DNA of 64,000 nucleotides from Aquibium carbonis (GTDB lineage Bacteria > Pseudomonadota > Alphaproteobacteria > Rhizobiales > Rhizobiaceae). Below the pieces are notes generated by a model, which was not told the origin of the DNA, made no database searches, and saw nothing but the letters and a program-made list of their open reading frames with translations. Made by a program: the position numbers and the translations under genes. The DNA lies in the NCBI RefSeq assembly GCF_003970795.1, contig NZ_RWKW01000041.1, positions 1 to 64,000 of the forward strand, read 5' to 3'. Positions 44,442-47,846 of this stretch are shown in pieces. How positions within the stretch are numbered: position 1 is the stretch's first letter; each line of letters starts with the position of its first letter.

Positions 44442-44804
44442 TCAGCTCGCGTGCTGGCGGACCTTGGTGCGAATCTGGTCGAGCGTGAAGGGCTTGGGAA
44501 GGATCTCGAGGATGATGCTGCTCAGTTCTTCAGCATGTTCACGCATGTCCGCGTACCCAGTGATCAGCATAATCCTGAGACCCGGGAAAAGAGCAGCTGC
44601 TGCCTTCGCCATCTCGATACCATCCATTGCGGGCATCCGGATGTCCGAGACGACGAGGTCGTAGGCCCCGTTACTCGCACGGATGCGCTCGAGACCCATC
44701 TCGCCGTCTTCCGCGGTCTCCACCACATGCCCGTCGCGTTCCAGTGCGCGAGCAGCAAGGGCCCGAACGGGCTCGTCATCCTCGACGATCAGGATCCTGC
44801 TCAT
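44442..44804 (-). CDS. Single-domain response regulator
   Basis: A 120-residue CheY-like receiver without an output domain. The acidic pocket is EDD (8-10), the phosphoacceptor Asp54 is in VVSDIRMPAMDG, the conserved Thr is in LITGYAD (about 81) and the Lys in LPKPFT (about 104). Such stand-alone receivers relay phosphate or bind partners, for example CpdR-like adaptors, but this one lacks clear CpdR hallmarks. No kinase is adjacent. It lies 59 bp downstream of hpt on the same strand, possibly co-transcribed. Confidence 0.88.
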   Translation of the reverse strand: MSRILIVEDDEPVRALAARALERDGHVVETAEDGEMGLERIRASNGAYDLVVSDIRMPAMDGIEMAKAAAALFPGLRIMLITGYADMREHAEELSSIILEILPKPFTLDQIRTKVRQHAS

Positions 44805-44863: not shown

Positions 44864-45406
44864 TCAGGCGTCGCCCTTTACGACCCCGACGAAGGGCAGT
44901 TCCCGAAAGGCATGTGCAACATCCATGCCGTAGCCCACGACGAAATAGTCCGGGCAGTCAAAACCGACATAATCGGCAGTGAGCTCAGTTTGGCGTTTGC
45001 TGTGCTTGTCGAGAAGCACGGCTATCGAGACACTACGAGCACCGCGTTCAAGCATCAGTTCGCGCGTGAACTTCAGCGTTTTGCCGGACTCAAGTATGTC
45101 ATCGATCAGCAGAATGTCGCGCCCGCGAACGTCGTTGTCGATATCGCGCAGCACCCTGACTTCGCCGCTGGTCGTACCCGTTCCATAGCTTGATATGAAA
45201 ATAAACTCGACTTCTGGAGAAGCCCCTGCGTCATGCATTGCCCTTATTAGATCAGCTGCGAAGATAAAGGATCCTTTCAGGATCGAGATGACGAGCAGGT
45301 CTGTGTAATCGCGCGAGGCGATTTCCTTGGCGAGCTCGAGATTGCGGAGCGCGATCGTAGACGCACTGAAAAGAACCTCGATCTCTTTGCCGCGTACCAC
45401 TGGCAT
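44864..45406 (-). CDS. hpt: Hypoxanthine phosphoribosyltransferase
   Basis: A 180-residue purine salvage enzyme making IMP/GMP from hypoxanthine/guanine and PRPP. The PRPP motif is RDILLIDDILESGKTLKF (about 95-112), with ILKGSFIFAADLIR near 43, the flexible-loop SSYGTGTTS near 72 and VGYGMDVAHAFRELPFVG at the end. Its start shares one base with the stop of the upstream DUF3426-like gene (TGATG), so the two are translationally coupled. Confidence 0.95.
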   Translation of the reverse strand: MPVVRGKEIEVLFSASTIALRNLELAKEIASRDYTDLLVISILKGSFIFAADLIRAMHDAGASPEVEFIFISSYGTGTTSGEVRVLRDIDNDVRGRDILLIDDILESGKTLKFTRELMLERGARSVSIAVLLDKHSKRQTELTADYVGFDCPDYFVVGYGMDVAHAFRELPFVGVVKGDA

Positions 45407-45963
45407 CAGTCGTTCCCCTTGGTCACCTTCACAGCAACGCCCCCCACCGAACCCATCGGCGCGTTGACGCGGCTGGAGAAATGGTAGCGTTCGCCGGGCT
45501 CCACCATGGCGCCCCCAGCGTCCAGTGTGTAGCGGGTGATGCGCCCTGCGTCACTCGTCACTTCTATGGCAAGTCTAGGCATGTATCCAGATTCTGCGGC
45601 AGTGTTCTCGACGCTGCCGTCGATAATGAGCAGCCGTCGGGCGCCTCGTTCCTGCAGATGCGAAGTCAGTTGTGCTATACGCATTGGCTCTGTTGAGGAC
45701 GGAGCAAGCACCGATCCCGAGAGCGCATGTCCCCCGGAAACCCAGAATGATGCGATGGCGACAACGACGCCAGAGATCCAGAACATCGGGCCAGCGCGCT
45801 CCCGAGAGGTACGATCTGTCGAGCCGCGCTTCAGCATGTCCATGCCGGCGCGCGTTTCGCTGTGGTTCATCCGTCTTTGCGGACCGAGACGGTCAGAGGA
45901 GCAGGGTACCACAGTCGACAGGTGCAGAACCTCGAACTCAGCATCCTCTATATCGCTTGCCAT
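45406..45963 (-). CDS. DUF3426/FxLYD-like single-pass membrane protein
   Basis: About 185 residues. A hydrophilic N-terminal region is followed by one membrane helix (MFWISGVVVAIASFWVSGG) and a periplasmic beta-sandwich-like domain with LLIIDGSVENTAAE, then MVEPGERYHFSSRVNAP, resembling the DUF3426/FxLYD fold. Related rhizobial proteins upstream of ftsE often carry an N-terminal MJ0042 zinc ribbon; no such CxxC pairs are visible here. The start is uncertain (ATG codons at 45963, 45870 and 45837). Coupled to hpt by a one-base overlap and divergent from ftsE. Confidence 0.65.
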   Translation of the reverse strand: MASDIEDAEFEVLHLSTVVPCSSDRLGPQRRMNHSETRAGMDMLKRGSTDRTSRERAGPMFWISGVVVAIASFWVSGGHALSGSVLAPSSTEPMRIAQLTSHLQERGARRLLIIDGSVENTAAESGYMPRLAIEVTSDAGRITRYTLDAGGAMVEPGERYHFSSRVNAPMGSVGGVAVKVTKGND

Positions 45964-46136
45964 TGCGAGGCCGGACCCTCGGACGCAACGGACCGTCATG
46001 ATTTCGCCCGAGACCGGGCGGAGGTGTCGCACATCGAACATCGGGACCGGCGATCATGGTGGAATCCTCTCCACGAGATAGAAGGAAATGGTTAATGTTT
46101 CGCTGCCGAAGGTCAGCCATTTCGCTTCGGCATCCG

Positions 46137-46157
46137 GATTCTTAACCAATCGTTAAC
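46137..46157 (+). promoter_or_regulatory. CtrA-type box with abutting GANTC site upstream of ftsE
   Basis: TTAA (46142-46145), exactly seven bases, then TTAAC (46153-46157) matches the CtrA consensus TTAA-N7-TTAAC. A GATTC (GANTC, CcrM methylation target) occupies 46137-46141, immediately adjacent. A further TTAA half-site is at about 46092. The box lies about 65 bp upstream of ftsE, in the divergent spacer with the DUF3426-like gene, so it could control cell-division genes ftsEX in the cell cycle. Confidence 0.72.
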
Positions 46158-46222
46158 CACGCGGCGTGAACGTCCCGCGTTCAGGCGCGGGCGAACAATG
46201 CAAACCAGAGCCGCAGGGTACA

Positions 46223-46882
46223 GTGATTCGATTTGAGAACGTCGGCTTGAGATACGGCATGGGCCCGGAGATACTCCGGGACATATCGTTCCACATTCCG
46301 CGCGGATCCTTCCAGTTTCTGTGTGGCCCGTCGGGTGCGGGCAAGACAACGCTGCTGCGCCTTCTTTTCCTGTCGCTGGCACCAACCCGGGGATTGATCA
46401 CGGTCTTCGGCAAGGACCGCACCCAGATCCTCCGCGCCGAACTGCCCCTCATCCGGCGCAAGATCGGGATCGTGTTCCAAGACTTCCGTCTGCTTGACCA
46501 TATGACCACCTACGAGAATGTCGCGCTGCCGCTGCGTGTCCGTGGACGCGAGGAAGCAAGCTACCGCAATGACGTCGTCGAATTGCTGAAATGGGTGGGC
46601 CTCGGCGACCGTCTGCACGTGTTGCCTCCAGTTCTTTCTGGCGGCGAGAAGCAGCGGGCCGCCATTGCGCGGGCGCTCATCGAGCAGCCGGAAATTCTGC
46701 TGGCTGACGAGCCGACCGGTAATGTCGATCCAACGCTTGCGCGCAGGCTCCTGCGCCTCTTCATCGAACTGAACCGATCGGGGACAGCGGTAGTGATCGC
46801 CACGCACGATCTCCACCTGATGGATCAGGTGGAAGCCCGTCGCATGGTGCTCGCGGAAGGCAGGCTTGATGTCCACGACTGA
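46223..46882 (+). CDS. ftsE: Cell division ATP-binding protein FtsE
   Basis: A 219-residue ABC ATPase that, with FtsX, drives septal peptidoglycan hydrolase activation. Walker A is GPSGAGKTTLLRLLF (about 37-51), the Q-loop VFQDFRLLDHMTTYENVALPL, signature LSGGEKQRAAIARAL and Walker B ILLADEPTGNVDP. The likely start is GTG at 46223 with CAGGGT upstream, giving the family-typical (M)IRFENVGLRYG; GTG at 46166 would add 19 residues. ftsX overlaps its end by 14 bp. Confidence 0.94.
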   Translation: MIRFENVGLRYGMGPEILRDISFHIPRGSFQFLCGPSGAGKTTLLRLLFLSLAPTRGLITVFGKDRTQILRAELPLIRRKIGIVFQDFRLLDHMTTYENVALPLRVRGREEASYRNDVVELLKWVGLGDRLHVLPPVLSGGEKQRAAIARALIEQPEILLADEPTGNVDPTLARRLLRLFIELNRSGTAVVIATHDLHLMDQVEARRMVLAEGRLDVHD

Positions 46883-47846
46883 CCAGACGCCGGCAGTCCA
46901 GCGGACCGGGTCGGGCGCCAAGACCTGGCGACGGCCGGCTTCGATCGTCCCGCAACGGAGCGTGGCGGGACACGCGCTCGTCATTGTCATCGCCATCATG
47001 ACGTTCCTCTCCTGTCTCACCTTGGGCGCCGTAACGCTGGTCCGCGACACGGCTAGTGTCTGGCAGACCCAGATCGCGCGTGAGGCAACGATCCAGATCA
47101 AGCCGGGCGACGGTATCGACATGAATGCCGCGCTTGCGCAGGCGCAGGCGATCGCTGCCGGCTTCGGCGGGGTACGGTCGGCGACGATCATTGACAGCGC
47201 TGCGACAGCGCGACTTCTCGAGCCGTGGCTTGGCGCCGGACTGAACATCGAGGAACTCCCGGTTCCGCGCCTTGTCATCGTCACCATCGACGAACGCGCG
47301 CCGCCCGATTTCGCGGCCATGCGGCAAGCGCTGCAGGCGAGCGTGCCGAACGTTAGCCTGGACGACCACCGCAATTGGGTAGACCGACTGATTTCGATGG
47401 CACACACCACCGTCATGATCGGCATCGCCATCCTGATTCTGATGCTGGCGGCGACTGTCATGACCGTAGTGTTCGCCACGCGTGGGGCGATGGCAGGCAA
47501 CGGACCGGTCATAGAGGTGCTTCATTTCGTCGGTGCGGAGTCTCAGTTCATCGCGGCGGAATTCCGCCGGCATTTCCTTTGGATCGGCCTAAAAGGCGCT
47601 GCAGCGGGCAGTCTCGCCGCTATCATCGTCTTCGTCGTCTTCGCCTGGTGGTCATCCCGAAATCTCGCCACGCCGCAGGCCGATCAGGCGACGGCTCTAT
47701 TCGGGAACTTCGTGATCGGTACGACGGGCTACGTCGGCGTTCTCTTCATCATGGCGCTGGTCGCCGGATTGACGGCCGCGACAACCCATTTCACCGTGGT
47801 TTCGCGGCTGAATGGTATCGACATCGGACGGACGGACCATGATTGA
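46869..47846 (+). CDS. ftsX: Cell division permease-like protein FtsX
   Basis: A 325-residue FtsX with the expected topology: a cytoplasmic N-terminus, first helix (GHALVIVIAIMTFLSCLTLGAV, about 34-55), a periplasmic domain, then three C-terminal helices (VMIGIAILILMLAATVMTVVF, AAAGSLAAIIVFVVFAWW and GVLFIMALVAGLTAAT). EVLHFVGAESQFIAAEFRRHF is the family coupling motif. The start at 46869 overlaps ftsE by 14 bp. Confidence 0.92.
   Translation: MSTTDQTPAVQRTGSGAKTWRRPASIVPQRSVAGHALVIVIAIMTFLSCLTLGAVTLVRDTASVWQTQIAREATIQIKPGDGIDMNAALAQAQAIAAGFGGVRSATIIDSAATARLLEPWLGAGLNIEELPVPRLVIVTIDERAPPDFAAMRQALQASVPNVSLDDHRNWVDRLISMAHTTVMIGIAILILMLAATVMTVVFATRGAMAGNGPVIEVLHFVGAESQFIAAEFRRHFLWIGLKGAAAGSLAAIIVFVVFAWWSSRNLATPQADQATALFGNFVIGTTGYVGVLFIMALVAGLTAATTHFTVVSRLNGIDIGRTDHD

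Follow-up and report, generated by a model that had tools for sequence, protein, structure and literature searches.

A conserved CtrA-type box and a private GANTC neighbour upstream of ftsEX in Aquibium carbonis

In Brucella abortus, CtrA binds the promoter of ftsE, as cited in PMC2877005. A CtrA motif has also been predicted upstream of the ftsE start site in Sinorhizobium meliloti (PMC3616915); the ChIP-seq and depletion study of the CtrA regulon in this species names, in its main text, minCD as the only directly controlled division genes (PMC4433202), and ftsE and ftsX find no match in that main text. Another example is Agrobacterium tumefaciens, whose ftsE is listed with a predicted CtrA site and a log2 change of 1.63 in the pdhS2 mutant (PMC7003649). 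Sites are defined there by seven or more matching letters, a definition looser than the exact box used in this work. Full and half CtrA motifs, together with their positions, are described in PMC4287350 and PMC6180460.

In Caulobacter, a second type of signal is reported at this gene. A conserved GANTC is described before ftsE, whose expression is lower without CcrM (PMC3708114, PMC3973325), and GcrA was located at the ftsE promoter (PMC3885167). GcrA control of ftsE was assigned a moderate probability in Caulobacter and a lower one elsewhere (PMC7987155).

The ftsEX locus and its upstream region

The DNA analysed here, referred to as the window, is a stretch of 64,000 nucleotides of the Aquibium carbonis genome (contig NZ_RWKW01000041.1, positions 1 to 64,000 of the forward strand). 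The features around ftsE, in order of position, are as follows:

44442-44804, minus strand: single-domain receiver, CpdR-like, behind hpt (NF046022, 98.6 bits, cut-off 180)
44864-45406, minus strand: hpt, hypoxanthine phosphoribosyltransferase, behind the divergent gene (TIGR01203, over cut-off)
45406-45999, minus strand: divergent small protein (probable start ATG 45999; longest frame to 46041)
46062-46066: GAATC, a GANTC site upstream of element B, read from the sequence
46088-46095, minus strand: element B, a reverse CtrA-like half-site, TTAACCAT (ATGGTTAA on the plus strand), facing the divergent gene
46137-46141: GATTC, a GANTC site (CcrM target) adjoining the box, read from the sequence
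46142-46157, plus strand: element A, the full CtrA box TTAACCAATCGTTAAC, TTAA-N7-TTAAC, from the sequence and the relatives
46223-46882, plus strand: ftsE (TIGR02673, 282 bits, cut-off 265)
46225-46229: GATTC over ftsE codons 1-3 (GTG ATT C), read from the sequence
46866-47846, plus strand: ftsX, longest frame (best match TIGR00439, 53 bits, below the cut-off of 255)

The likely start of ftsE is the GTG at 46223, because the N-terminus that begins there is common to the relatives; an in-frame alternative GTG lies at 46166. No Pfam family was matched by the ftsX-like gene. The genome encodes CtrA (NF045991, 424 bits, cut-off 350), a CcrM-like methylase (best match NF050803, 640 bits, below the cut-off of 830, with a Pfam RAMA domain), and GcrA (PF07750 over cut-off; NF050816 at 165 bits, below its cut-off of 280).

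Immediately before ftsE, the region reads GGATTCTTAACCAATCGTTAACC, in which GATTC (46137-46141) is followed directly by TTAACCAATCGTTAAC (46142-46157), so the two adjoin with a gap of 0. The first-pass annotation had described a TTAA-N7-TTAAC box with a GATTC directly attached, and this description is accurate: the spacing is exact and the pair occupies 46137-46157 without a gap. The box ends 65 bp before the likely GTG start. A single TTAA-N6..8-TTAAC is present in the window, against a mean of 0.05 in shuffled sequence, where at least one occurrence was seen in 4 of 100 shuffles. GANTC is rarer in the window than expected (131 observed vs 364 expected). A second CtrA-like half-site, ATGGTTAA at 46088-46095, lies inside the range covered by the first-pass annotation and was unnamed there. 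By eye, no convincing -10 element was seen in the region before ftsE.

Two further observations concern sequence next to the box. An inverted repeat, GAACGTCCCGCGTTC, stands just 3' of it at 46168-46182; it is kept in the two nearest genomes of the same genus (G002 and G004) and absent from the other two (G001 and G003). In six of the relatives' loci (L020, L022, L023, L024, L025, and L026), the ACCAT of the right half of the box is followed 8 bp on by GATGGT or ATGGTC, which forms an imperfect inverted repeat of the end of the CtrA half-site and extends beyond the box.

On the other side of the intergenic region, the divergent small protein belongs to no family found in profile searches, and a divergent frame is present at the same place in three relatives (L022, L102, and L037). 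Two of these, L022 and L037, also have a receiver like that at 44442-44804 in the corresponding position. We considered this receiver as the CpdR of the genome and rejected it on its NF046022 score of 98.6 bits (cut-off 180) vs 209.5 for another gene; since it is not the CpdR of this genome, no direct link from the promoter to CtrA proteolysis is claimed. A hairpin, CGCCCG-GTCT-CGGGCG (45997-46020), stands immediately ahead of the probable start codon (ATG) of the divergent gene. A genome search that tolerated up to 2 mismatches found its motif a single time, and its stem is exact in two of the four same-genus genomes and changed in one letter in the other two. An Rfam search of the hairpin gave one match at chance level, and its folding is no better than that of shuffled sequence, with equal or better folding in 160 of 200 shuffles.

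The box and its GANTC neighbour in relatives

Conservation was counted in 108 loci from two sets of relatives. The first set comprises the best 80 of at least 588 confirmed relatives. In the second, 61 genomes matched and the best-scoring 30 gave loci, which without the window makes 29 of 60. The total is 80 plus 29 minus one identical copy (L119, a copy of L077), with the window's own locus (L100) dropped. The two sets may include the same genomes twice, and the count was repeated after merging upstream sequences at 80% identity.

TTAA-N7-TTAA is present within 250 bp of ftsE in 44 of the 108 relatives, while each of the other spacings between 0 and 15 is found in 0-9 of them. After merging, the figures are 41 of 97 vs 0-4 of 97. 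The first-pass annotation had named lack of conservation of the two TTAA half-sites as one of the results that would refute its reading, and they turn out to be conserved at their own spacing in these 44 loci. Of the 44 relatives with a box, 35 have TTAACCAT as its right half, while the 7-bp spacer is variable; the window itself carries TTAACCAC. Two of the four same-genus genomes have both halves exact, and the other two combine an exact right half with TTTA on the left. Two Sinorhizobium/Ensifer loci (L070 and L073) carry the box. The exact box is missing in 64 of the 108 relatives, including both Agrobacterium loci (L035 and L063), and all four of the Bradyrhizobium loci listed are without it.

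In the genome as a whole (5.34 Mb), TTAA-N7-TTAA occurs at 18 places vs 12 for the reversed control, a modest excess; rarity therefore says little, and it is conservation that carries the argument. One further full box of the genome lies in front of minC, a reported CtrA target (PMC2877005, PMC4433202). Elsewhere in the same genome, on contig C161, two neighbouring genes for outer-membrane-like proteins (L016 and L018) each stand behind a TTAA-N7-TTAAC, with the boxes about 1 kb apart. One of the two has a Pfam OMP_b-brl domain, and an adhesin model matches both at scores under its cut-off.

Element A has several features of a full CtrA site: two TTAA lie 7 bp apart, the right one is part of TTAAC, the spacing is conserved, and CtrA is encoded. 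We consider it probable that element A is a working full CtrA site that helps the cell-cycle timing of ftsEX, and that the GATTC beside it is incidental. In such a mechanism, phosphorylated CtrA would bind both TTAA half-sites, separated by 11 bp (roughly one turn of the helix), and CtrA at element A would help to set the timing of ftsEX transcription in the cell cycle. The sign would depend on the position of the box: activation is expected near -35, and repression where box and core promoter overlap. The GATTC at 46137 would have originated in this lineage and, although possibly methylated, would not be needed for the switch. Binding, timing, and sign at element A are what we infer from the site and its conservation.

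According to a different explanation, the box is not bound by CtrA, and the TTAAC-like elements belong to an AT-rich core promoter. This would agree with the absence of the exact box from those 64 relatives and with the main text of PMC4433202, which does not name ftsE among the direct targets. A -35 element alone, however, does not account for a second TTAA at exactly N7 (44 of 108 vs at most 9 of 108 for any other spacing), and we consider the core-promoter account unlikely.

The first-pass annotation had predicted that CtrA and CcrM together control ftsEX, and perhaps the divergent gene. Its CtrA part is supported by the spacing-specific conservation and by the papers on relatives, while the S. 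meliloti data speak against a strong direct effect in that species. Control of ftsEX by CtrA is likely; it is control of a known kind, and the connection is already known in outline.

The composite of box and GANTC fares differently. It had been presented as a unit of alphaproteobacterial cell-cycle promoters, whose conservation in other Rhizobiales was proposed as a check. If the unit were functional, methylation of the adjoining GATTC by CcrM, read by GcrA or by CtrA, would gate CtrA, and ftsEX transcription would follow the methylation state that replication leaves behind. The exact adjoining of GATTC and box is consistent with this idea, as are the CcrM-like methylase and GcrA encoded in the genome and the findings reported for Caulobacter, where ftsE is lower without CcrM, the GANTC is conserved, and GcrA is at the promoter (PMC3973325, PMC3708114, PMC3885167). 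In the same-genus genome G003, moreover, a GATTC lies 11 bp downstream of the right half-site. Against it, a GANTC within 2 bp of the box was found in 0 of the 44 boxed relatives and one within 20 bp in 4 of 44, and the position of 46137 has a GANTC in none of the four same-genus genomes. Among the genome's own 18 full boxes, a GANTC adjoins only the one described here and lies within 20 bp of 2. Among the 79 family genomes matched by the pattern described in the next section, the window alone has a GANTC adjoining the box on its upstream side.

The density of GANTC was also compared with that of other pentamers. In the 200 bp before ftsE it reaches 3.35 per kb, third of 8 pentamers and inside the range of the seven controls (1.51-4.17), so it is not clearly enriched. 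Some GANTC is present in these 200 bp in 55 of 109 loci, and it is 2.4 times denser before ftsE than in ftsE, the second highest ratio of the 8 pentamers; both figures fit a gating role for methylation, and there may be a general preference for GANTC upstream of ftsE, judging from these sequences. GANTC sites do stand in the promoter region (46062 and 46137, with 46225 at the start codon), and the one at 46137 is not conserved. The GAATC at 46062-46066 is present in G001 and G003 and absent from G002 and G004.

On these counts, we set aside the abutting GANTC as a conserved partner of the box and regard gating of CtrA by its methylation as highly improbable. The GATTC at 46137 is most likely incidental, a neighbour of the box by chance. 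Control of ftsE by CcrM is nevertheless plausible by analogy with Caulobacter, though for the GATTC at 46137 itself there is no evidence of conservation. What looks by eye like one meaningful motif separates, once relatives are compared, into a CtrA box that is conserved and a GANTC neighbour that is private to this genome.

The GATTC at the start codon is a separate case. A GANTC occurs at this place (46225) in 32 of 109 loci. Codon 2 of ftsE is ATT in 33 cases and ATC in 50, vs 264 ATT and 1013 ATC in the rest of ftsE. The site goes along with this raised share of ATT at codon 2, and we did not take it to be regulatory.

Element B and its distance from the box

Element B recurs before ftsE in Rhizobiaceae, including loci where the full box is absent. 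ATGGTTAA is present within 400 bp of ftsE in 53 of 110 loci (the window and one copy included), while the scrambled control is present in 1 of 110. By score, element B was found in 67 of 109 loci vs 1 of 109 for shuffled sequence, a comparison that is partly circular, as the consensus was derived from the same loci. Among the 108 relatives, 31 loci have B without A and 16 have A without B. For control of the divergent gene, which is possible, element B (46088-46095) is a better candidate than the box.

The co-occurrence of the two elements was followed across the family with a pattern of ATGGTTAAYG and then a full box at 31-61 bp, so that only distances within that range are detectable. It matched 79 of 394 family genomes, in 27 of 109 genera, with 0 matches for the reversed control. 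For 20 places out of these 79 genomes the position relative to ftsE was checked, and 17 of them lie before it. The other three are L163, L164, and L166, and the remaining pattern places of group g15 are probably not before ftsE either; in G018 the pattern place is on a different contig from its ftsE.

Counting the window, 48 loci have both elements. The distance between the two is 40-41 bp in 13 loci and 49-53 bp in 29; the remaining six do not fit this phase, with distances of 34, 35, 44, 44, 48, and 48 bp. One more locus before ftsE has a distance of 61 bp. The distances of about 51 or about 41 bp, one helical turn apart, are suggestive of a phased bidirectional module composed of element A and the reverse element B, which is not established by them. 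On a tree of FtsE and FtsX, the state of 40-41 bp requires 6 changes on the best tree, at least 2 of them by well-supported branches. For this tree the ftsX frames were picked by similarity, and L031 was included without ftsX; L167 and L180 lie before ftsE and are outside the tree, because the start-codon pattern did not catch them.

The recurrence of the pair before ftsE, the two preferred distances with the further case at 61 bp, and the repeated changes on the tree all argue for the phased pair. A parsimony count puts 7 of 10 or 7 of 11 events in phase (P 0.008-0.016), with a phase window that was chosen after seeing the data. The conservative count, which takes well-supported events and the 61-bp locus, gives 3 of 6 (P 0.23). 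The six out-of-phase loci also speak against it, as do the limits of the pattern at 31 and 61 bp, two pairs among the 48 loci whose upstream sequences are identical, and the many loci in which B or A stands alone; element B is, moreover, a CtrA half-site by prediction. On balance, we regard a phased pair as possible but tentative. Rather doubtful is its fuller form, in which CtrA at the box and at the reverse TTAACCAT would have to share a face of the helix, so that the distance could change only by whole turns (about 41, 51, and 61 bp), and in which ftsEX would be coupled to the divergent operon that includes hpt and the CpdR-like receiver. If the phased pair holds, it would provide a testable rule for the action of CtrA across a divergent promoter.

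Comparison with known systems

A close parallel to such a pair is the fla2 divergent promoters of Rhodobacter sphaeroides, for which PMC6180460 describes CtrA sites that serve divergent genes and an argument from the face of the helix. The difference is that the genes there are flagellar, and that the passages on fla2 describe one shared or two independent sites instead of a recurrent spaced pair. In the literature searched on CtrA at ftsE and at divergent promoters, in the parts that treat these sites, we found no description of the recurrent A-B pair, which is possibly the one lead of this work that is new.

As in the accounts of Caulobacter ftsE, a GANTC lies upstream of the gene in A. carbonis and a CcrM-like methylase and GcrA are encoded; the GANTC is reported as conserved there, whereas the adjoining one here recurs in no relative examined. 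The ftsE of Agrobacterium tumefaciens resembles the present locus in the CtrA site predicted for it in PMC7003649 and differs in that the two sampled loci are without the exact box. Sinorhizobium meliloti shares with A. carbonis a CtrA motif predicted to lie before the start of ftsE, and differs in that only minCD are given as direct division targets in the main text of PMC4433202. The conservation described above strengthens, by comparison between genomes, the case for CtrA control of ftsEX in Rhizobiales, an order in which the regulon study of S. meliloti left it unnamed. The ftsE promoter of Brucella abortus, as it is cited, is a case of CtrA binding before ftsE in a member of the same taxonomic order.
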